Positions 15,393-44,926 of a stretch of DNA of 44,926 nt are shown here, piece after piece. The notes under the pieces were generated by a model, which saw only the letters and a list, made by a program, of their open reading frames with translations, made no database searches and was not told the origin of the DNA. The translations under genes and the position numbers were made by a program. Origin of the DNA: a virus; the IMG/VR virus record IMGVR_UViG_3300028590_000004, positions 1 to 44,926 of that record, one strand, 5' to 3'. Positions within the stretch are counted from its first letter, which is position 1; every line of letters begins with the position of its first letter.

Positions 15393-15769
15393 CGTGTGAG
15401 GACCATGGCGGCAAAGCGCCTCGGTACGCCGCCTGTAGGCACAATGGGCGGTACATCGGCAAGCATGTCAGGGCCCTCATGCAGAAAACCGGCGAGTCAC
15501 CTAACGGTCGCTACGCCCTTCACGTCTGCCACAACTGTCGGTGTATTAATCCTGACCACCTGTACTGGGGAGACCAGAGGCGGAACATAAAGGACGCCGT
15601 TGAGGCCGGGCGCCACGACCCTAGCCGCAAGTTGACAGAGCAGCAAGTTAGCTATGTCCTTGAGAACTACAAACCGTACGATCGCCATACAGGCGGCGCA
15701 GCCCTAGGTATCCAACTCAACGTATGCGAACAGACGATCACCAAACTAGTTCGGAACGGCGGCTACTGA
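15389..15769 (+). CDS. HNH homing-type endonuclease
   Basis: The HNH_3-type motif is LHVCHNCRCINPDHLYWG (residues 44-61), giving H45, N54 and H57 as core residues with C47/C52 as possible metal ligands. A DNA-recognition tail follows (KLTEQQVSYVLENY, then LGIQLNVCEQTITKLVRNGG, a helix-turn-helix pattern). It is free-standing, inserted between MazG and the RNA polymerase. Its AT-ending codons (ACTAGT, TTAATCC) differ from its neighbours, as expected of a mobile gene. It resembles the HNH protein at 44481 in layout. Confidence 0.85.
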   Translation: MTCEDHGGKAPRYAACRHNGRYIGKHVRALMQKTGESPNGRYALHVCHNCRCINPDHLYWGDQRRNIKDAVEAGRHDPSRKLTEQQVSYVLENYKPYDRHTGGAALGIQLNVCEQTITKLVRNGGY

Positions 15770-15792
15770 CGCAGTGTGAGGTGGAGAGCACC

Positions 15793-18213
15793 ATGTACCA
15801 CGGCGGCATCAAGCGCGCCGAGGGCATGATGCAGAAGGCCGAGGACAAGGGGCGGGCGGTGCAGAACCCCTACGCCAAGGAGATCCTCGGGGAGTACGTT
15901 CTTCCACTGGCCCAAGCCCTGCGCACGGAGCTTGACGAAACCCGAGCAGGTATCCGGCGTGCACATGCCAAGCTCCTCAAGGGCCTCGACCCCGAGACCG
16001 TGGCGTACCTCGCTGTGCGCAGCACGGTCAACACCGTCCTCACCGGTGGCAGCAGTACGCTGCGTGCCCTGGCGTACGATGTGGGTCGCACGATCCACAA
16101 CGAGTTGGTCCTGATCCAGATCGAGGACTACGCCCCTGACCTGTACCACACCCTGGCCCGTGACCTGGGTCGCCGACTGTCCAAGGACGAACGGCACCGC
16201 ATGACGGTGTTCAAGATGCAGGCGGCGAAGAAGGGGATGTACATCCAGGAGTGGCCCATTGGTGCGCGGGATCAGGTGGGGATGTACATCCTCGGCCTGC
16301 TGGAGGCGATGGGTCTCATCATCATCGAGCCTGCCCGGCCTGCGATGACCGGCAAGAGCCCGCCTCGCACCATCATCCTGGCGCATGAGGTGATGCAGCG
16401 CATCGACCAGATCAAAGCCCACGTGTCCATCACCATGCCGGTGTACGGTCCGTGCGTGGAGCCGCCCAAGGATTGGGTCACACCTAGCGACGGAGGGTTC
16501 CATACCAAGGAGCTTCGCCGTACGCACAGTACCCTGGTCCGGCACCGGCTGGCCCGCACGGCGTTGTATCGGGACGCACAGATGCCTGTGGTACTGTCAG
16601 CAGTGAACGCCTTACAGCGCACCGCGTGGTCCGTGAACACCCGGGTGCTGGACACGGTGTTGGAGATTGCCAAGTCATTCAGCGTGGGTGAGATCACCAG
16701 CCTCGCGGATGTGCCCAAGCCCGCCCGGCCCGAGTGCATCCCGGAGGGGGCTGCGCGTGAGGCGAAGGACGGCTGGCCTGAGGAGGTGAAGGTTGCCTTC
16801 AAAGCGTGGAAGCGGGCCATGGCCGAGTGGCACACGGAGCGCAAGCTCATGGCTGTGAAGTACGGGCGGTTCTACAGCGCCACCCGTGCAGCCGCGATGT
16901 TCCGGGACTATCCTGCTATCCACTTCGTGTACTTCGCCGACAGCCGTGGGCGCCTGTACCCGATGACCTACGGGATCAACCCGCAGGGCAGCGACCTGCA
17001 GAAGGCGCTCATCAAGTTCAGCAAGGGCATGCCGGTGGACACGCCTGACGCCATCAAGTGGTTCCACGTTCAGGGCGCGAATAAGTGGGGCTTCGACAAG
17101 GCAACTCTAGAGGAGCGGCAAGCATGGGTGGTGGAGCGGCAAGACATCCTTGTTTCATTTGCGGAGGATCCGGTGAACAACCGGGGATGGACGGAAGCTG
17201 GGGACCCTTTGCAGTTCCTGGCGTGGTGTTTCGAGTACCGGGAGTGGGTCAACGACAGCACTGGAACATTCCTCTCGCACCTACCGATCAGCATGGACGG
17301 GAGTTGCAACGGCCTGCAGAACCTGAGCGCCCTGTTGCGGGACGAGATTGGGGGTGCAGCTACGAACCTCACCGCGAATGCCGAGATGCAGGACATCTAC
17401 AAGCGGGTGGCGACAGCGACAACTGGACGGTTAACCTCGGCCGTGTACTCCGACGACCCTGTGAAGGAGTCCTGCCGTACACGCTGGCTGACCTTTGGCG
17501 TGGCGCGGAGCCACGTGAAGCGTAGCGTCATGACTACGCCGTACGGCGTGACCAAGCGCAGTGCCATCGACTATGTGATCGAGGACACCCTGAAGAAGGG
17601 AGAGGTTCCGTGCTTCGAGAAGACGGAGTTCATGAAGGCTGCTCAAGTCCTCATGGATCATGCGTGGCCCGCCATCGGGGACGTGGTGGTCAAGGGTCGG
17701 GAGTGCATGGACTGGCTTCAGAAGTCCGCTCGTGTCATCGCTCGTTCTTTCAAGGAGGATGAGGAGCCGTGCATCACATGGCTGAGTCCTTCGGGCTTCC
17801 CCGCATCTCAAGCTTACTTCGAGCTTCAGGTCCATCGTATCAACTCTCACCTTGCTGGTCCTATCAAGCTTCGTGTGATGTCGGAGACTGACGACCCTTC
17901 CGTCACCCGCCATGCTTCGGGGCTTGCTCCGAACTTCGTGCACTCGATGGATGCTGCGCACCTGCACTTGACGACTGCCGCGTCCGCTCGTCGTGGAATA
18001 GATGCACTGGCGATGATTCACGACGACTACGGTACCCATGCGGCTAACGCAGAGGAGTTGTTCCAGATCATCAGAGAGGAGTTTGTCAAGATGTACGAGA
18101 CGAACGATCCGATCCAACAGTTCAAGGACAAGTACCCGATGATCCCCAAGCCGCCCGAGAAGGGGAACTTGGATATCCGAGAAGTCTTGCAGTCCGCTTA
18201 CTTCTTCAGTTGA
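15793..18213 (+). CDS. Single-subunit DNA-directed RNA polymerase (T7 type)
   Basis: Transcribes the late genes from phage promoters. Catalytic residues are seen at D502 (SMDGSCNGLQ), K576 (HVKRSVM), Y584 (TTPYGVTKR) and D744 (MIHDDYGTH), equal to T7 D537, K631, Y639 and D812. The C-terminus ends in an aromatic foot (SAYFFS), like T7's FAFA. The start is ATG 15793 with GGTGGAGAG before it, giving 806 residues; an upstream in-frame ATG at 15724 lies inside the HNH gene and adds a sequence not typical of the family. The position before the structural genes is phiKMV-like. Confidence 0.95.
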   Translation: MYHGGIKRAEGMMQKAEDKGRAVQNPYAKEILGEYVLPLAQALRTELDETRAGIRRAHAKLLKGLDPETVAYLAVRSTVNTVLTGGSSTLRALAYDVGRTIHNELVLIQIEDYAPDLYHTLARDLGRRLSKDERHRMTVFKMQAAKKGMYIQEWPIGARDQVGMYILGLLEAMGLIIIEPARPAMTGKSPPRTIILAHEVMQRIDQIKAHVSITMPVYGPCVEPPKDWVTPSDGGFHTKELRRTHSTLVRHRLARTALYRDAQMPVVLSAVNALQRTAWSVNTRVLDTVLEIAKSFSVGEITSLADVPKPARPECIPEGAAREAKDGWPEEVKVAFKAWKRAMAEWHTERKLMAVKYGRFYSATRAAAMFRDYPAIHFVYFADSRGRLYPMTYGINPQGSDLQKALIKFSKGMPVDTPDAIKWFHVQGANKWGFDKATLEERQAWVVERQDILVSFAEDPVNNRGWTEAGDPLQFLAWCFEYREWVNDSTGTFLSHLPISMDGSCNGLQNLSALLRDEIGGAATNLTANAEMQDIYKRVATATTGRLTSAVYSDDPVKESCRTRWLTFGVARSHVKRSVMTTPYGVTKRSAIDYVIEDTLKKGEVPCFEKTEFMKAAQVLMDHAWPAIGDVVVKGRECMDWLQKSARVIARSFKEDEEPCITWLSPSGFPASQAYFELQVHRINSHLAGPIKLRVMSETDDPSVTRHASGLAPNFVHSMDAAHLHLTTAASARRGIDALAMIHDDYGTHAANAEELFQIIREEFVKMYETNDPIQQFKDKYPMIPKPPEKGNLDIREVLQSAYFFS

Positions 18214-36246: not shown

Positions 36247-36559
36247 AGACGAACTCGGTGCAATGCACGGCGCGATTGCGCGCGGGCTCACCGAGATCAT
36301 CACCGACGGTGCAGTGATCGGTAAGGACGAGGACACGGGCAAGGTGATTCGCATCACCCCACCGGCCTCGTACTTCGCCGCTGCCATCGCGTTCGCAAAG
36401 AACAACAACATCACCGCCGATCCGACCACGAATACCGAACTGGTTGGCCTCACCGAGGCCCTGGCGCGCCGCACCGCCGCCAAACAGAAGCTCAACCGCA
36501 CCGCCTTCGACGAGGCAGCGGAGCAACTGGACCGTGATCTCGGAGGCATGATGCAATGA
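36230..36559 (+). CDS. terS: Terminase small subunit
   Basis: Recognises the phage DNA end and hands it to the large subunit. It lies directly before terL and overlaps it by ATGA. The sequence (109 aa; T7 gp18 is 89) starts MSKASEDELGAMHGAIARGL, has the region TPPASYFAAAIAFAKNNNIT and ends in a charged helix. These are features of the T7-type DNA maturase A family. The start lies inside the holin gene. Confidence 0.82.
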   Translation: MSKASEDELGAMHGAIARGLTEIITDGAVIGKDEDTGKVIRITPPASYFAAAIAFAKNNNITADPTTNTELVGLTEALARRTAAKQKLNRTAFDEAAEQLDRDLGGMMQ

Positions 36560-38334
36560 AAGAACGAGAGAGTGAGGCCCTAGCGGCCGTCCGCTGGGCC
36601 AAGCTCAAGCTCGTACAGCAGCACTACGAATCCTTCGTCCCGTTCCTTGAGGACGTGATGGAGGAACTCGGCTTCCACACTTCGGAGATCCAGCGAGACA
36701 TCGCAGGGTTCATGGAGTTTGGCCCGCAGTACATCATGGTGCAGGCGCAGCGTGGGCAGGCCAAGACCACCATCGCTGCCGCGTACGCTGTCTGGTGTTT
36801 GATCCACAGCCCTGCTCACCGTGTGCTGGTCGTCAGCGCCGGGGGTACTCAGGCCGTGGAGATCAGCACCCTGATCGTCCGGATCATCATGAACATGGAC
36901 GTGCTGGAGTGCCTGCGCCCCGACAAGCTCGCGGGTGACCGCACCTCGGTCGAAGCGTTCGACGTGCACCACAGCCTGAAGGGCATCGACAAGTCCCCGT
37001 CCGTCGCCTGCGTTGGTATCGACTCCAACCTGCAAGGCAAGCGGGCGGACTTGCTGATCCCCGATGACGTGGAGTCCGGCAAGAACTCGGCCACGGCGGT
37101 GCAGCGGGCGAAGCTCCTGCACATCACGAAGGACTTCACGTCCATCAACAGCACAGGCCGGATCATCTGGCTCGGCACGCCGCAGACGCTGGAGTCCATC
37201 TACAACTCCCTCGCTGCACGTGGTGTGACGATCCGCATCTGGCCGGGGCGTTACCCGACCGAGAAGCAACTCGCCTTCTACGGTGCCAACCTCGCGCCGA
37301 TCTACGCGCGCAAGCTCGCTGACAACCCCGCTCTCGCGGAAGGCGGCGGCTACCTGGGCGATCAGGGACAACCGGTGGACCCGGTGATCCTGCCCGAGGC
37401 TGTGCTCCAGAAGAAGGAGCTTGACCAGGGTGAGGCGTACTTCCAGCTTCAGCACATGCTGAACGTGACGCTCTCGGATGCGATGCGGTTCCCGCTCAAG
37501 CCCTCAAAGCTTGTGGTGTTCCGCCCCGCTGGCGAGCGCTTCCCGATCAGCGTGGTCCGGGGGATGGGTGACACTCACCTCAAGGACTACTCCGTCGCGG
37601 ACTTCGCGTTCAAGCTCACGATCCCGCACGAGGTCTCCACCGAGACCAACAAGCTGCAGAGCATTTGGGCCTACGTGGACCCGGCCCCTGGCGGGGCCAA
37701 TGCTGACGAGACCGCCTACGCGGTGGGTGGATACCTCAACGGTACCATCTTCCTGCTCGCGTGTGGCGGCATCCCCGGCGGCTACGACGACGAGAAGATG
37801 GAGAAGCTCGCGCATATCCTGAAGCTCCACAAGGTCGATGGCGTGACCATCGAGAAGAACATGGGCTACGGTGCCTTCCGGCACATCTTCACCCCCATCC
37901 TCCGCAAGCACCTCCAATGCCAGATCGACGACGACCTCGTCACCGGGCAGAAGGAAGCACGGATCATCAACACGCTCTCTCCCATCATGGGCCGAGGCGC
38001 ACTCGTGGTGAGCGAGGATGTGATCGAAGAGGATCAGGCCACGGTCGCGGGATACACCGCCTCCATGCGTCAGACGTACTCCCTATTCTACCAACTGGCG
38101 AAGATGAACCAGACGGCCAACGCCCTCATCCACGATGACCGGGCTGATGCGCTTGAAGGTCTCTGCCGCCATTTCCAAGAAGCGCTCGCCAAGGACTCCG
38201 AGAAGGGTCTCAAGGCAGCGAAGGAGAAGGCGTGGAAGGAACTGACCAAAGATCCCTGCGGTCACAACCACTGCCACTCCTATGTCCCCGGTCGCAATTC
38301 GCGGCCAAACATGCTGCGCAACAAGCGCCGCTGA
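36556..38334 (+). CDS. terL: Terminase large subunit (packaging ATPase/nuclease)
   Basis: The motor that packs DNA through the portal. Walker A is QAQRGQAKTT (R66-T72). Walker B with its acidic residues is in RADLLIPDDVESGKN. The C-terminal nuclease starts with the metal-binding Asp in WAYVDPAPGGANADE (D375), and later acidic residues include one in IHDDRADALEG. Length 592 is close to T7 gp19 (586). It is the most useful gene here for placing the phage by phylogeny and suggests packaging with direct terminal repeats, as in T7. Confidence 0.95.
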   Translation: MKERESEALAAVRWAKLKLVQQHYESFVPFLEDVMEELGFHTSEIQRDIAGFMEFGPQYIMVQAQRGQAKTTIAAAYAVWCLIHSPAHRVLVVSAGGTQAVEISTLIVRIIMNMDVLECLRPDKLAGDRTSVEAFDVHHSLKGIDKSPSVACVGIDSNLQGKRADLLIPDDVESGKNSATAVQRAKLLHITKDFTSINSTGRIIWLGTPQTLESIYNSLAARGVTIRIWPGRYPTEKQLAFYGANLAPIYARKLADNPALAEGGGYLGDQGQPVDPVILPEAVLQKKELDQGEAYFQLQHMLNVTLSDAMRFPLKPSKLVVFRPAGERFPISVVRGMGDTHLKDYSVADFAFKLTIPHEVSTETNKLQSIWAYVDPAPGGANADETAYAVGGYLNGTIFLLACGGIPGGYDDEKMEKLAHILKLHKVDGVTIEKNMGYGAFRHIFTPILRKHLQCQIDDDLVTGQKEARIINTLSPIMGRGALVVSEDVIEEDQATVAGYTASMRQTYSLFYQLAKMNQTANALIHDDRADALEGLCRHFQEALAKDSEKGLKAAKEKAWKELTKDPCGHNHCHSYVPGRNSRPNMLRNKRR

Positions 38335-38874: not shown

Positions 38875-39360
38875 ATGAGTGCGCTCGGACCGAAGGTTCG
38901 GGTGCTGGCCGCGACCCTCGTCATCTCCGCTGCTGGCCTCGCTGGCATCAAGCGTGACGAGGGTGACGTTCGCAAGGTGTACCTTGACCCCGTTGGTATC
39001 CCCACCGTTTGCGTGGGGCACACTGCCACCGTGACCCACAAGGATGTGGGGAAGACCTACAGCGCCGAGACCTGTACCTACCTGCTCAAGCAAGACACCC
39101 GTCAAGCTGTGGCAGCGGTGCAGCGGCTGGTCAAGGCACCGCTCACGCAGCAGCAGTTCGATGCTCTCGTGAGCTTCACGTTCAACGTGGGCGTTGCGAA
39201 CTTCCAGTCCAGCACTCTGCTCAAGCAGTTCAATGCCGGGCAATGCCATGCCGCAGCGGATCAGTTCCAGCGATGGAACAAGGCGCGAGGCAAGGTTCTC
39301 CGTGGTCTCACCATCCGCCGGGCTCATGAAGCAGCCGCGCTGCGGGAGGATTGCCCTTGA
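38875..39360 (+). CDS. Endolysin: lysozyme (GH24) with signal-anchor-release N-terminus
   Basis: Cleaves peptidoglycan at lysis. The catalytic E(8)D(5)T triad is exact: E29 in KRDEGD, D38 in YLDP and T44 in IPTVCVGHT. ALVSFTFNVGV is the conserved GH24 core. The N-terminus (VRVLAATLVISAAGLAG) is a weak, Ala/Gly-rich hydrophobic helix after a basic start, as in SAR endolysins such as that of phiKMV, which are exported without the holin. Length 161. Its stop overlaps a TTG-start gene. Confidence 0.88.
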   Translation: MSALGPKVRVLAATLVISAAGLAGIKRDEGDVRKVYLDPVGIPTVCVGHTATVTHKDVGKTYSAETCTYLLKQDTRQAVAAVQRLVKAPLTQQQFDALVSFTFNVGVANFQSSTLLKQFNAGQCHAAADQFQRWNKARGKVLRGLTIRRAHEAAALREDCP

Positions 39361-40798: not shown

Positions 40799-40847
40799 GG
40801 TTAGGCCTGACCATAGGCTGGGCTCAAATTTTATTAGACAATTGCGA

Positions 40848-40859
40848 GGAGGGCCCTCC
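40848..40859. repeat. Perfect 12-bp palindrome
   Basis: GGAGGGCCCTCC, 50 bases after the last late gene and next to an AT-rich patch (AATTTTATTAGACAATTG, 40828-40843). It could be a weak terminator stem or a protein-binding site near the genome end. Confidence 0.4.
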
Positions 40860-41168
40860 GACCTCCGGTCCCGCGCCTTCCCCCGTACGCCCTCGCGCTC
40901 CGCGCACGTTGACGCGCGTGGTACGCGTGCGGGCTCGCGCCTGTTTGACGCGGGCGGGCCTCGGGCAGGTCTATCAGCCTTGGGCCGAGGGTTAGTGCGC
41001 GCTTCACGCCACAGCCTCGCCACGGGCTTTGTGCTAGCTCAGGCTACATGGGGTGCTACCCTGGTCCGTTAGGCTCGCCACGGGGCGGGTAGAGGGCTCG
41101 CCGGGGCATTGGCGGGTCAGGCCGAGGGCGTGCGAGCCAGCGGCGCCGATCTATCTGCATCATTGTCG

Positions 41169-41210
41169 TTGCCTATCGCCATAGGTTGGTCATAGGGCTT
41201 GCCTATGAGG
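41169..41210. repeat. Cluster of CCTAT / CATAGG repeats
   Basis: TTGCCTAT occurs at 41169 and 41199 exactly 30 bases apart. CATAGG occurs at 41180 and 41191 and again at 40811 after the last gene. The arms are partly complementary (CCTAT with ATAGG). Short repeats of this kind near the end of T7-like genomes may bind terminase, but that is inference. Confidence 0.4.
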
Positions 41211-41229
41211 CCATCAGCGGGCCATTGCC

Positions 41230-41253
41230 TTAACGAATCCTTAACGCCGTTAA
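41230..41253. repeat. TTAACG direct and inverted repeat
   Basis: TTAACG at 41230 and 41241, the second forming a 13-base palindrome TTAACGCCGTTAA (41241-41253). It is AT-rich against its surroundings and lies 40 bases before the phage promoter. It is a candidate protein-binding site. Confidence 0.4.
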
Positions 41254-41292
41254 TGCTCTGTTGGAATCGCGCTCCCTGGTAGCAGAGGGTCC

Positions 41293-41309
41293 AGTACCCC
41301 TAGTACACA
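41293..41309 (+). promoter_or_regulatory. Phage RNA polymerase promoter, copy 4
   Basis: AGTACCCCTAGTACACA, identical to the other three except the first base. It is alone in non-coding DNA, before the host promoters, like T7 phi-OL/phi-OR near the DNA ends. It may serve replication or late transcription through the end region. Confidence 0.82.
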
Positions 41310-41558
41310 GAACACCGGATGGCTGCATCTATTACACGTGCCCGGAGGACACAAGGCTAGCGCCAACCTCCTGAGAGCCCTGCATCCTTCGGGTGCGAAG
41401 ACAGCAGCGAGCCCAGATGGACAGAGACACAGAGCCACTGACCTAGAGACGGAGGGACCGGCCTCCCACACTAGGAGAGAGAGGAGAGCCTAGAGAGGTA
41501 GAGAGCTGCCCGCCTCCTGCAAGCCTTAGAAGGGAGAGCTAGACCAGGAGCTACGTGA

Positions 41559-41587
41559 TTGACTACTAACATAGATAGGAGTACAGT
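41559..41587 (+). promoter_or_regulatory. Host sigma70-type promoter 1
   Basis: TTGACT (41559-41564), 17-base spacer, TACAGT (41582-41587): five of six and four of six matches to consensus. It is the first of three tandem candidates, all with 17-base spacers, upstream of the early genes, like T7 A1-A3. Confidence 0.65.
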
Positions 41588-41678
41588 CCATCTCAGAGGT
41601 TGATAGGAAGCAGGTGAGAACAGCGGCGTGATAGCCGGTTACTGCAAGACTCCTAGAAGCCTTTAGAGAGCTAGGCTC

Positions 41679-41707
41679 TTGACAAGGTTAGATGATTGGC
41701 CTACACT
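41679..41707 (+). promoter_or_regulatory. Host sigma70-type promoter 2
   Basis: TTGACA (41679-41684, perfect), 17-base spacer, TACACT (41702-41707). The -10 region (GCCTACACTACAGGCTG) is partly repeated at about 41866-41881 without a -35, so a degenerate copy lies downstream. Confidence 0.75.
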
Positions 41708-41753
41708 ACAGGCTGAGAGGTTAGAGATAGCGCAAGACCTTCGGTCAAGGCTA

Positions 41754-41782
41754 TTGACAACCTTGAATAGATGTGAGATGAT
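41754..41782 (+). promoter_or_regulatory. Host sigma70-type promoter 3
   Basis: TTGACA (41754-41759, perfect), 17-base spacer, GATGAT (41777-41782, four of six). It is followed by GCATCTGTTCGAT, a 13-mer that recurs at 43239 in the gap before the kinase gene. Confidence 0.6.
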
Positions 41783-42031
41783 TGCATCTGTTCGATTCGT
41801 TCTTTAAGCTTGCCTCATGGCGGCAGGGTGCTTAGGCTTCCTGCGCGTGTGGTGAGAACGGTTAGCCTACCATACAGGCTGTGAGTACAGATGGATGCTT
41901 CATAGCTCCAGGGAATGGCGTATGCTGGAACCCTGGGTAGGCTGTGTGGCTATGTCTGAATCAATCTCACTGTGCGGCGCTAACGTACCCAGCACATTAA
42001 ACCGGGGCACTCAGTGATGAGAGCGTTTAAC

Positions 42032-42178
42032 CTGCATCTATGCGTAATAGCATGGGTGCAGGGATGGTGACACCGAAGGGGCTAGGCTCCCTGTCGCTCT
42101 GATCCTGAGCATAGCTCCACTTCGGTGGTCTACAGGCAACGACATACCCTTCTAACCTGACGTGTCACCATCCCTGCA
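42032..42178 (+). ncRNA. Structured early leader RNA with alternative stems
   Basis: A perfect 17-bp inverted repeat (42057-42073 with 42162-42178) encloses 88 bases and ends 25 bases before the first early gene. Within it CACCGAAG (42071-42078) pairs with CTTCGGTG (42120-42127), GAGC-ATA-GCTC forms a small hairpin, and TGTCG (42092) can meet CGACA (42140). A separate stem, CTGCATCTATGC (42032-42043) with GCATGGGTGCAG (42050-42061), shares bases 42057-42061 with the long repeat, so the two cannot form together. A switch, attenuator or RNase III site is inferred. Confidence 0.55.
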
Positions 42179-42203
42179 TTCCGCAGGCTCAAAGGATTGC
42201 ATC

Positions 42204-42740
42204 ATGAACATCGACACCAAAAAGCTCGCCTCCGACATCAAGTCCATCAAGGTCCGCTCGGCGAGCATCGACAAGGATGTGCAGGACGCGGCGCTCCGCG
42301 CCATCCAGATCGCTGATCGCAAGGAAGGCACCGGGAACCTGCACTTCGTCAATGCGCTGTACAAGGCTCTGGGCAAGGGTGCCCGGCACGTGGCCCTGAC
42401 GGCGTGGTATCAGGCCTTCGGTGGCCTGAAGGCGAACACCGCTGCCAGCAAGGACGACACGCCCTTCGTGCACAACAACGACAAGCTGATGGATCTGGTC
42501 GGGGGCCAAGCCACGCCGTGGTACGACATGAAGCCGAGCCAGAAGCCCGACGAGGTGTTCGACTTCCTGGCCCTGACGCTGGCTGTGATGAAGAAGAAGC
42601 CGAAGGAAGGCCAGGAGTCCGCCCACATGGCTCTGCGTGACAAGCTCACCGGCGTGGTCGAGGAATACCGCAAGACGCTGGAAGCCGATGAAGCGGCACC
42701 GGCTGATGAACCCGCCAAGGAAGCGGAAAAGGTCGAGTAA
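42204..42740 (+). CDS. First early protein, acidic C-terminus (178 aa)
   Basis: First gene after the host promoters and leader, with AAAGGA before ATG 42204. Helical: residues 1-60 (DIKSIKVRSASIDKDVQDAA, FVNALYKALGKGARHVAL), a middle with a YQAFGGLKAN turn, and a disordered acidic tail (EADEAAPADEPAKEAEKVE). The pattern of interval helices with KGARHVAL-type segments is seen in early phage proteins of unknown role. A terminator-like hairpin follows. Host takeover is a guess from position. Confidence 0.72.
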   Translation: MNIDTKKLASDIKSIKVRSASIDKDVQDAALRAIQIADRKEGTGNLHFVNALYKALGKGARHVALTAWYQAFGGLKANTAASKDDTPFVHNNDKLMDLVGGQATPWYDMKPSQKPDEVFDFLALTLAVMKKKPKEGQESAHMALRDKLTGVVEEYRKTLEADEAAPADEPAKEAEKVE

Positions 42741-42754
42741 TCGAGCCCACATCG

Positions 42755-42774
42755 GGAGGCCCTTCGGGGCTTCC
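42755..42774 (+). terminator. Terminator-like hairpin after the first early gene
   Basis: GGAGGCCC (42755-42762), TTCG loop, GGGCTTCC (42767-42774): eight pairs with one G-T. The following TCATTGTGTGTTT is only moderately T-rich, so it may be a partial terminator or RNA-processing site. Confidence 0.6.
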
Positions 42775-42800
42775 TCATTGTGTGTTTGAGCGGAGGTATC

Positions 42801-43139
42801 ATGCTCTGTGCATCATTGGCTGTGGGTTACCACATCGCCACTAGTCATCATGCGAACCATCGGCATGACCTGAACGAGTTCAATCCTGGCCTGTACGTGC
42901 AGTGTGACTCTCTGGTCGCTGGTGGCTTCCTCAATTCCCTCGGCAAGCCCTCGCTCTACGGCGCGAAGGCGGTCGAGGCTTCCCGTGGTCTTGACCTTGT
43001 GCTCGGAGTCGTCACCGGATATGGTGGCGTGTCTCCGTTGCTCATGGTCTCGTACCGCATGAAGGATGGCACGCGGCTGTCCTGGATCCCGACCACACCG
43101 ATGAACGTGGGCGGGCTCCACCTTTCCCAGGAGTTCTGA
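42801..43139 (+). CDS. Hypothetical protein, small beta-barrel-like pattern (112 aa)
   Basis: GGAGG precedes ATG 42801. The sequence has alternating strands and the order NEFNPGLYVQ, GGFLNSLGKPSLYGA, LDLVLGVVTGYGGVSPLLMVSY, ending VGGLHLSQEF. This pattern (NPG, Y/LNS, VTGY) resembles a family of small bacterial and phage envelope proteins of unknown function. The N-terminus (MLCASLAVGYHI) could be a weak signal. Assignment is by memory of the pattern only. Confidence 0.6.
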   Translation: MLCASLAVGYHIATSHHANHRHDLNEFNPGLYVQCDSLVAGGFLNSLGKPSLYGAKAVEASRGLDLVLGVVTGYGGVSPLLMVSYRMKDGTRLSWIPTTPMNVGGLHLSQEF

Positions 43140-43499
43140 CATGCGTTAGATGGTACGGCTTGCCGCCGTGGCTAACCAACTGAGTATTAGGTCGATACGG
43201 GCCGCACACCTACGCTGCATAGTGCCCAGACCGAAAGAGCATCTGTTCGATGCTGTGTGAACCGACATACAAGCCCGGGGCTTCGTTACGGTTCCACGTT
43301 TGCCGTAAGGCCGTCCGCGATGACGTGAAACTCCGAGGTGCAAGCGAACAGCCTAGAGTGTCAGCCGTCGAGCCGTACGTAACGGCCACAGTGGGGGAAA
43401 TCAAGAACCCACTGTCCTGCATCCAATCCGAAGAATCGTGCCCATTAATGATGGCGGGCCGTTGGGTGCAGGACAGTGTGTTCAACTACGGGAGCAATC
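43140..43499. other. Intergenic region before the kinase gene
   Basis: 360 bases without a convincing gene; an 87-codon frame (43250-43513) lacks a ribosome site and typical codon use. It holds a small hairpin AGCATC-TGTTC-GATGCT (43238-43254) and the large inverted repeat at 43410-43478. No clear sigma70 promoter is seen. Confidence 0.55.
43410..43478 (+). other. Long hairpin upstream of the kinase gene
   Basis: CACTGTCCTGCATCCAA (43410-43426) pairs with TTGGGTGCAGGACAGTG (43462-43478) over 17 positions with one G-T pair, loop 35 bases. It ends 21 bases before the kinase start. Long early-mRNA stems of this kind in T7 are cut by RNase III, which would release the kinase message. Confidence 0.6.
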
Positions 43500-44414
43500 A
43501 TGCTTTCGATTGAGGAGGTACGACAGTACCGCAATAACCAGAACGGCTGCAAGTACCTGGGTGGTGGCATCATGGGCACTGCCTACCTGCTGCCCGATGG
43601 CCGCGTCCTGAAGATCGCTCGCAAGTTCGATGGAACCAGCGACTGGATCGAAGCCAACGCCAGCGAGTTCAAGCTCAAAGGCAAGCCCTTGGACTACGGT
43701 CCGAAGGTTTGGCACTTCGAGGCCGACTACGAGACCGGAGGTTGGTGGGCGGTGATGGAGCGTGTGCTTTGCATGCGTAGCCTCTCCGCACATCCGTTCG
43801 TGCTTCACCGGGACTACCGTGACCTGGAACACAGCCCAATGGAACTGGTGCATGCGTTGAAGGCGATGGGCTTTAGCCACAACGACCTGCACCGTGGGAA
43901 TTACGGTCTGACATTGGACGGGCGCTTCGTTGCGTTCGATCCGTCGTCAGCGGATTCCAGACGGCGCAGCAAGCCCGCACAGACCGCCACCCAGATGATG
44001 ATGATGGAAGAACGGGAGGTGATGAACGCTTTCCGTGAGGCTGCTGCCCGAGCGGTGCCCGAGAAGTTCCGGGCGCCGGACGATGACTGGATGGACTGGG
44101 CAGGCGTCGTGGTGCGACACGACAAGCAACGCCTGCAAGACGCGCTGCTCATCAATAAGGCCCACCTCCAGATGGACCGGGCGGTGCCTGAGCAGTTCAA
44201 GGCGCCGCGATGGCACTTTGACACCCCGCCGCACGAGCGGTTGCCGAATGGGCCGCTGGTCGTCAAGAAGGCCCCTCCCAACGACGCCCGCGACGATGCG
44301 CTCTTCGGTCTGGGTGCGCGGCCGATGTTCTTCGACCCGGGGCCGATCAAGCCCAAGAAACGCGCTCAGTGGCTCAAACCGCACCTGGGGCAGCTACCGC
44401 ACGTCCACAAGTAG
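43500..44414 (+). CDS. Protein kinase homologue (T7 gp0.7-like)
   Basis: The kinase fold is visible: Gly-rich loop YLGGGIMGTAYLL (residues 19-31), the ATP-binding Lys in VLKIARK (K38), the catalytic loop FSHNDLHRGNYG (D129, N134) and a DFG-like VAFDPSSAD (D147). T7 gp0.7 phosphorylates host proteins and shuts off host transcription; a like role is inferred. The C-terminal half (residues 170-304) is charged, with repeated segments RAVPEKFRAPDDD and RAVPEQFKAPRWH, an internal duplication. RBS GGGAG before ATG 43500. Length 304. Confidence 0.78.
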   Translation: MLSIEEVRQYRNNQNGCKYLGGGIMGTAYLLPDGRVLKIARKFDGTSDWIEANASEFKLKGKPLDYGPKVWHFEADYETGGWWAVMERVLCMRSLSAHPFVLHRDYRDLEHSPMELVHALKAMGFSHNDLHRGNYGLTLDGRFVAFDPSSADSRRRSKPAQTATQMMMMEEREVMNAFREAAARAVPEKFRAPDDDWMDWAGVVVRHDKQRLQDALLINKAHLQMDRAVPEQFKAPRWHFDTPPHERLPNGPLVVKKAPPNDARDDALFGLGARPMFFDPGPIKPKKRAQWLKPHLGQLPHVHK

Positions 44415-44427
44415 ATCGCAGCCTGTA

Positions 44428-44454
44428 GGGCCTGGGAACCACGTTCCTGGGCCC
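44428..44454 (+). terminator. Terminator-like hairpin after the kinase gene
   Basis: GGGCCTGGGAAC (44428-44439) pairs with GTTCCTGGGCCC (44443-44454) over 12 pairs (two wobble), loop CAC. The following CTCAGATTGTGATTTT has a T-run only 12 bases later, so termination may be partial. Confidence 0.65.
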
Positions 44455-44480
44455 CTCAGATTGTGATTTTAGGGAGAGTA

Positions 44481-44876
44481 ATGACTGAATGTATTGAAGT
44501 AGCAGGAGCCACTGTCAAAGGTGGCTACGTACAAGAGCGGGCTGAAGGGTATAGCACCTTGGCCCACAGAGTCGCCTATGCCCGGGCCCATGGCGTACCT
44601 GTCCGATCCCTGATCGGTACGGTGATTCGTCACACTTGCGACAATCCGCCGTGCATCAACCCTGCACATTTAGTTGCAGGCACCGCCTCCGACAACATGC
44701 GAGACATGGTGGATCGGGGCCGTGACGCAGGGAGGCAGAGGCGCAAGCTTCAAGACTGGCAAGTGAGGAGCATCCGGCAATCGGACCAACCTTACAAGAC
44801 CGGTAGGAGTTTTGGAGTCAGCAACAGCGTAACCCGCTACATCCTTAACGGCACCACCTACAAAGACGTTGTGTGA
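44481..44876 (+). CDS. HNH homing-type endonuclease spanning the contig junction
   Basis: ATG 44481 follows AGGGAGAG; an upstream in-frame alternative lacks a good site. The HNH_3 core is IRHTCDNPPCINPAHLVAG with DNMRDMVDRGRD behind it, and the C-terminal helix-turn-helix tail is GRSFGVSNSVTRYILNG. It shares layout, though not close sequence, with the HNH gene at 15389. It is probably a free-standing mobile endonuclease between the kinase and the micro-gene cluster. The last 77 bases fall in the 127-bp repeat, so the contig was opened inside this gene. Confidence 0.88.
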   Translation: MTECIEVAGATVKGGYVQERAEGYSTLAHRVAYARAHGVPVRSLIGTVIRHTCDNPPCINPAHLVAGTASDNMRDMVDRGRDAGRQRRKLQDWQVRSIRQSDQPYKTGRSFGVSNSVTRYILNGTTYKDVV

Positions 44877-44926
44877 TTTCAGCGAGTAGCCCAAGGGTTA
44901 CTCAGTGCAATCCGCACTGCTACAGA
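44800..44926. repeat. Terminal direct repeat, right copy (contig overlap)
   Basis: Exact copy of bases 1-127. Removing one copy closes the molecule at 44,799 bp and restores a continuous HNH gene followed by the gene at 135. Confidence 0.95.

Follow-up and report, generated by a model that had tools for sequence, protein, structure and literature searches.

An early-leader RNA element with two conserved alternative pairings in Curvibacter phage P26059B and related T7-supergroup phages

Beyond the lambda and T7 models, few phage leader RNAs have, to our knowledge, been described. In phage T7, RNase III cuts the early mRNA before the early genes (at R0.3 and other sites), and the sites at which it does so are single irregular hairpins. 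Reported here is a previously undescribed element that Curvibacter phage P26059B and its relatives, a group within the T7 supergroup, have in the leader of their first early mRNA. It was examined in what is termed here the window, that is, the whole 44,926-base stretch of DNA analysed, which is the genome of a T7-supergroup (autographivirus) virus. The element consists of three helices, termed P1, P2 and P3. Like the T7 RNase III sites, it places a duplex a few tens of nucleotides 5' of an early gene of a T7-supergroup phage, within a transcript made by the host RNA polymerase; unlike those sites, it comprises three helices that abut one another and have an alternative pairing that covaries, and it was seen only before the first early gene.

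A second point of comparison is the put element of phage HK022, which spans ~70 nt of abutting stem-loops--two, of conserved sequence, bound to RNA polymerase--with putR ~270 nt from the start site (PMC9378689). The present element likewise has abutting stem-loops in an early phage transcript (PMC9378689), but it has three helices, its position is tied to the start codon, and its P2 sequence is free, which does not fit put. With riboswitches and attenuators it has in common two competing leader pairings of similar energy; it differs from them in having neither a terminator nor a known ligand, in leaving the window's ribosome-binding site unoccluded, and in its branch-migrating junction, at which two hairpins yield to one longer stem. 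Strong stems directly before the first early gene also characterize the leaders of phiKMV and of the Bifseptviruses; the stems in the leaders of phiKMV, LKA1, P14, SB3, Andromeda, Bf7 and BIM BV-45 are other ones, and P1-P2-P3 with P1-P3 complementarity was not seen in them.

The initial annotation of this DNA knew of no named phage RNA with such a form, and a search of Rfam 15 agrees: over the whole window no family reached its gathering threshold, and at E ≤ 10 over 40800-44926 there were only chance-level matches, none of them over the element. A tRNA search likewise found nothing. No description of the element was found in the literature searched, in which most subscription journals are absent, and the words promoter, noncoding and hairpin do not occur in the paper describing P26059B (PMC5964084).

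The early region of the window and its three helices

The nearest named phage to the window is Curvibacter phage P26059B, whose polymerase is 60% and whose terminase is 66% identical. On the 3' side of the lysis genes lie ~1.4 kb without convincing genes, followed by the early genes (Table 1), the first of which belongs to a family, PHROG 1448, that takes in phiKMV ORF3; the earlier placement of the structured site just before the first early gene was borne out. Since two predicted sigma-70 promoters lie 5' of the element, the leader should be transcribed, with a predicted length of ~410-490 nt. Most relatives have comparable TTGACA-type promoters 400-890 nt 5' of the PHROG 1448 gene.

Table 1. 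Positions of the genes, signals and helices of the window
Feature	Positions	Strand	Basis or remark
Single-subunit RNA polymerase	15724-18213		
Large terminase	36556-38334		
Endolysin	38875-39360		
Predicted early sigma-70 promoter, TTGACA-17-TACACT	41679-41707	+	consensus scan
Second predicted early promoter, TTGACA-17-GATGAT, TG extension	41754-41782	+	consensus scan
P1 hairpin, CCTGCATCTATGC-GTAATA-GCATGGGTGCAGG	42031-42062	+	fold; p=0.005 against shuffles, this leader
P2 extension, 5' side (P1 3' arm), GGGTGCAGG	42054-42062	+	
P2 core, 5' arm, GATGGTGACAC	42063-42073	+	fold, leader comparison
P2 interior, 88 nt, structured	42074-42161	+	fold
P2 core, 3' arm, GTGTCACCATC	42162-42172	+	fold, leader comparison
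P2 extension, 3' side (P3 5' arm and loop), CCTGCATTC	42173-42181	+	
P3 hairpin, CCTGC-ATTCC-GCAGG	42173-42187	+	fold, comparison; directly 5' of ribosome-binding site
Shine-Dalgarno, AAAGGA	42191-42196	+	sequence; outside all element helices
First early gene, 178 aa, PHROG 1448, function unknown	42204-42740	+	start ATG 42204

Several other features of this region were observed. Two leader blocks, 41797-41845 and 41972-42009, are collinear with a relative's contig (G026) at 82-84%, the remaining leader being unalignable; the second of these blocks folds no better than its shuffles. Among the other early genes, 42801-43139 has a weak PagP-type match (PHROG 3600, E 3e-9), and 44481-44876 encodes an HNH endonuclease (PHROG 1872, Pfam HNH_3). 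The protein encoded at 43500-44414, for which there was no Pfam or PHROG match, contains HNDLHRGNYG...FDPSS, which we take to resemble a protein-kinase catalytic loop (compare T7 gp0.7). A 4.9-kb contig (IMGVR_UViG_3300038441_000677, L038) whose terminase is 100% identical to that of the window is apparently the same phage; it stops short of the leader.

The feature from which the analysis started is a perfect 17-bp inverted repeat with an 88-nt interior (TGCAGGGATGGTGACAC/GTGTCACCATCCCTGCA, 42057-42073/42162-42178). It is the sole perfect 17-bp pair within 220 nt anywhere in the window; 60 Markov (dinucleotide) shuffles of the window yielded none, and the RNA fold of 42057-42178 has an energy of -57.8 kcal/mol (z = -5.4), confirming what had been annotated. 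The hairpin reported just upstream is also real, although what had been given as 12 bp becomes 13 pairs with G-U included (arms 42031-42043/42050-42062), sharing with the repeat six nucleotides, 42057-42062, rather than five. The further claim that only one of these two stems can form did not hold: in the minimum-energy fold P1, a P2 of 11 bp and P3--a hairpin that had been missed--stand side by side, and only the outer pairs of the 17-bp stem compete, forming at the expense of P1 and P3 together. When the 3' arm of P1 pairs with the 5' arm of P3, a four-way junction results; in the window the energies of the two states are -75.8 and -73.2 kcal/mol, 2.6 kcal/mol apart.

Along the leader, P1, P2 and P3 abut with almost no linker and are followed by the Shine-Dalgarno sequence and the ATG. 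In the window all the features proposed for the element are found together: P2 abuts P3, P1 abuts P2, and P1 and P3 are complementary in register. Each helix has p=0.005, the extension consists of 9 contiguous pairs, and no other gene in the window has the P1-P2-P3 architecture (score 93, as against 57 for the runner-up). The suggestion that the structure is a switch or an attenuator survives in part: there are indeed two conserved alternative pairings, but within 42031-42203 there is no predicted intrinsic terminator or terminator-like site (terminator plus U-run), so that a transcription attenuator is not supported. As for a translational switch that hides the ribosome-binding site, the Shine-Dalgarno sequence is unpaired, or outside the helices of the element, in either state of the window.

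Conservation of the helices and of a second pairing

A nucleotide search with the leader among named phages gave no match, nor did the early protein of the window, when used by itself as query against viral contigs; relatives were therefore reached through the terminase and then through PHROG 1448. Eighty terminase relatives were obtained from viral contigs, PHROG 1448 was sought in 50 records and was present in 27, the leader 5' of each such gene was read, and P3 could be placed in 24 leaders. (A 15-nt arm pattern had 36 matches in viral contigs, which were not taken as relatives.) A second search yielded new, held-out leaders, which had not been used in forming the idea of an extension. The leader of the window itself turned up no close relatives, so its assessment relies on analogy to leaders further removed. 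In the cultured Curvibacter phage P26059B the element lies on the complement of ~36637-36699 (KY981272.1).

A P2-type stem lies within 0-3 nt of P3 at p<0.05 in 18 of the 24 leaders (combined Fisher 6e-20, with a per-leader floor of 0.005 set by the number of shuffles and with P3 core stems picked by eye); automatic choice of P3 had the same outcome (Fisher 6e-23). The sequence of P2 is free across leaders while its pairing is kept, that is, the relatives retain pairing rather than sequence, which is the opposite of what the initial annotation had said would refute it. P3 is either CCTGC/GCAGG or GCTAG/CTAG, P1 is mostly GATAG/CTATC, and in nearly all leaders P3 lies 16-24 nt 5' of the start codon. 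Among 14 aligned leaders (trimmed sequences with the P2 interior cut out), 97.1% of the cells of P1 and P2 are paired, with a covariation of 0.471. Four leaders (G036, G003, G010 and G005) have short cores, or a P1 or extension that is unconvincing.

Within P2 stems, scored symmetrically, there are 35 G-U (G-T) pairs as against 4 A-C mismatches, from which it follows that the element acts as plus-strand RNA, the mRNA. This imbalance also bears on whether the repeat is instead a DNA palindrome serving as an origin, packaging or recombination site, as its long inverted repeats and its location near the genome-end region might suggest; given the G-U pairs, and given the element's fixed place beside the ribosome-binding site, that explanation is extremely improbable. 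Comparison of the leaders shows three helices and their action as plus-strand RNA, and it is almost certain that the first early mRNA has a conserved cis-acting RNA element in its leader.

The leaders share a further regularity: the 3' side and loop of P1 are complementary to the 5' side and loop of P3, in register with P2, so that P2 can lengthen to ~20 bp, displacing P1 and P3. The summed complementarity score is 282.7, whereas permuting the partners across leaders gives 116 ± 21 (0/5000), and the effect persists within each class of P3 (CCTG, 2/5000; CTAG, 0/5000). Over 28 leaders, positions 1-10 are 79% paired in register and 26-47% paired when slid by 1-3. In the CTAG class the complementarity continues into the P3 loop. 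Of the loop-region positions, 23 of 24 are paired in the held-out leaders alone (permutation 85/10000) and 51 of 56 in 14 nonredundant leaders (permutation 0/10000). In the 14 aligned leaders 93.7% of the cells of the extended pairing are paired, versus 26-43% when slid; 14 pairs have changed on both sides, and covariation is 0.576, versus 0.213 for shuffled and at most 0.127 for slid pairings. Relatedness among the leaders is disregarded in the permutation tests, though not in the slid controls. The extended P2 spans 9-27 pairs (median 21.5; 20 in the window), its core having a median of 13.5.

That P1 and P3 are duplicated hairpins, with duplication the sole source of their complementarity, was considered and rejected: their loops are complementary beyond permutation (1/10000), whereas their identity is not beyond permutation. 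Comparison thus shows a second covarying pairing, P1 with P3, in register with P2, and ~25 related phages keep the same choice of two folds despite differing sequence. Conservation of the two alternative pairings partly supports a switch, for which actual switching in vivo is a candidate behaviour only.

The same complementarity could instead reflect a kissing contact between the loops of P1 and P3 that compacts the leader or joins two RNAs, without switching; such a contact, whether in cis or between two RNAs, would explain the loop covariation equally well. Some details favour it: leaders of the CTAG class invariably have a U-C mismatch at extension position 2 (0/14 paired), for which a duplex able to extend freely should have no need; one leader (L195) has a mispair at extension position 6; and another (L172) keeps its loop complementarity, which overall exceeds permutation, only with a one-base shift in register. 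Against a kiss, P1 and P3 of the window are unequal in length (13 and 5 bp), its loops have only 3 common pairs as compared with 9 contiguous pairs in the extension, and, with zero linkers, two 6-bp hairpins kissing coaxially on one stem would seem strained. Moreover, the extension has 8 or 9 pairs with at most one mismatch in the window and in G002, G046, G026, G044 and G049, and in the window it goes well past what loop pairing requires. A kissing contact by itself is rated unlikely; a kiss maturing into strand exchange would satisfy both kinds of evidence.

Interior modules and possible functions

The tip of P2 varies from 3 to 172 nt across leaders and its variable interior is unalignable; many leaders have no module there, merely a P2 loop of 3-6 nt. 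Motif A (AUCCGAANAAUCGUG..AYUUAUGAUGGCG..CGUU), which contains a short covarying stem, occurs within the P2 of several leaders. Motif B, GTACATGCnGATTGTACTAATCnG, forms a ~35-nt module at the P2 tip of G030 (L161) and is also found in G024; the leader of G029 (L165) is near-identical to that of G030, and only G030 has the module. The interior of the window's first leader shares only a short stretch, TCGGTNNNCTACAGGC, with G002 and lacks motif A, which in the window occurs in a second long stem (43405-43483) before the gene at 43500. There motif A, AATCCGAAGAATCGTGCCCATTAATGATGGCGGGCCGTT at 43425-43463, recurs in leaders from at least six further phage lineages and has an invariant loop, ATGATGG, on a covarying GCCC/GGGC-type stem. 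Rfam had no match to the 43405-43483 stem, and a loose regular expression for motif A returned only noise.

The function preferred here, by analogy with T7 and with a probability of roughly 0.4, is RNase III-type processing of the early mRNA that leaves P3 as a 5' hairpin. During transcription of the leader, the 5' arm and loop of P3 would pair with P1, lengthening P2 to ~20 bp, or two helical turns; RNase III or a similar enzyme would cut this duplex; and the downstream mRNA would refold P3 as a 5'-terminal hairpin just before the ribosome-binding site, where it may protect the mRNA and free it from the leader. The agreement between the 20-bp stem and an RNase III site--a duplex of about two turns 5' of an early gene--is one of length only.

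Exchange between P1+P2+P3 and the extended P2 might instead alter ribosome access to the first early gene, either through a standby site or by insulating the binding site, and it might do so by sensing a module inside P2. Such translational control is possible, if doubtful: the spacing of 16-24 nt between P3 and the start codon in nearly all leaders, the P2 modules (several leaders with motif A, two with motif B, and the single-module difference between G029 and G030) and the long hairpin of the Pseudomonas Bifseptviruses are consistent with it, but no direct occlusion is seen in the window, whose Shine-Dalgarno sequence is outside all helices in both states, and many leaders are module-free. 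In these Bifseptviruses (phages Andromeda, Bf7 and BIM BV-45; L230, L231, L233) the hairpin before the first gene includes the Shine-Dalgarno region, and there it is possibly a translational control.

Sequences resembling boxA (CGTTCTTTAA / TGCTCTTTAACA) occur at 41798-41807 in the window, near -635 in the leader of G003 (L156) and near -374 in that of G026 (L157), in each case 8-15 nt 3' of an early promoter; of the 24 leaders, 9 contain such sequences, as against 1.6 after shuffling, suggesting Nus-type antitermination of the untranslated leader. If antitermination matters here, the element might itself modify RNA polymerase, as an antiterminator working through the polymerase's zinc-binding domain in the manner of put, which also has abutting stem-loops (PMC9378689), and so serve the long early operon from its position in the early transcript. 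Yet put requires defined sequence contacts, whereas the P2 sequence is almost unconserved, and the element is tied to the start codon and not to the promoter, which makes this role very unlikely.

Processing by an RNase III-type enzyme remains the preferred reading. A broader formulation, put forward tentatively and with considerable doubt, is that the element represents a new class of leader RNA, in which a transcription-timed branch-migrating junction would trade two flanking hairpins for a longer stem whose tip is a socket for modules, making processing or translation of the first message conditional; the outer arms would pair as a fourth helix, and different phages would plug in different RNA modules.

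The covariation, including that of the held-out sequences, means that this group of phages preserves two alternative RNA folds, not one, at the start of infection, and the role of the element is probably to shape or control the first mRNA to be made. Because a cultured phage, P26059B, carries the element, its role is directly testable. More generally, these findings suggest a function, as RNA, for the long early leaders that autographiviruses leave untranslated.
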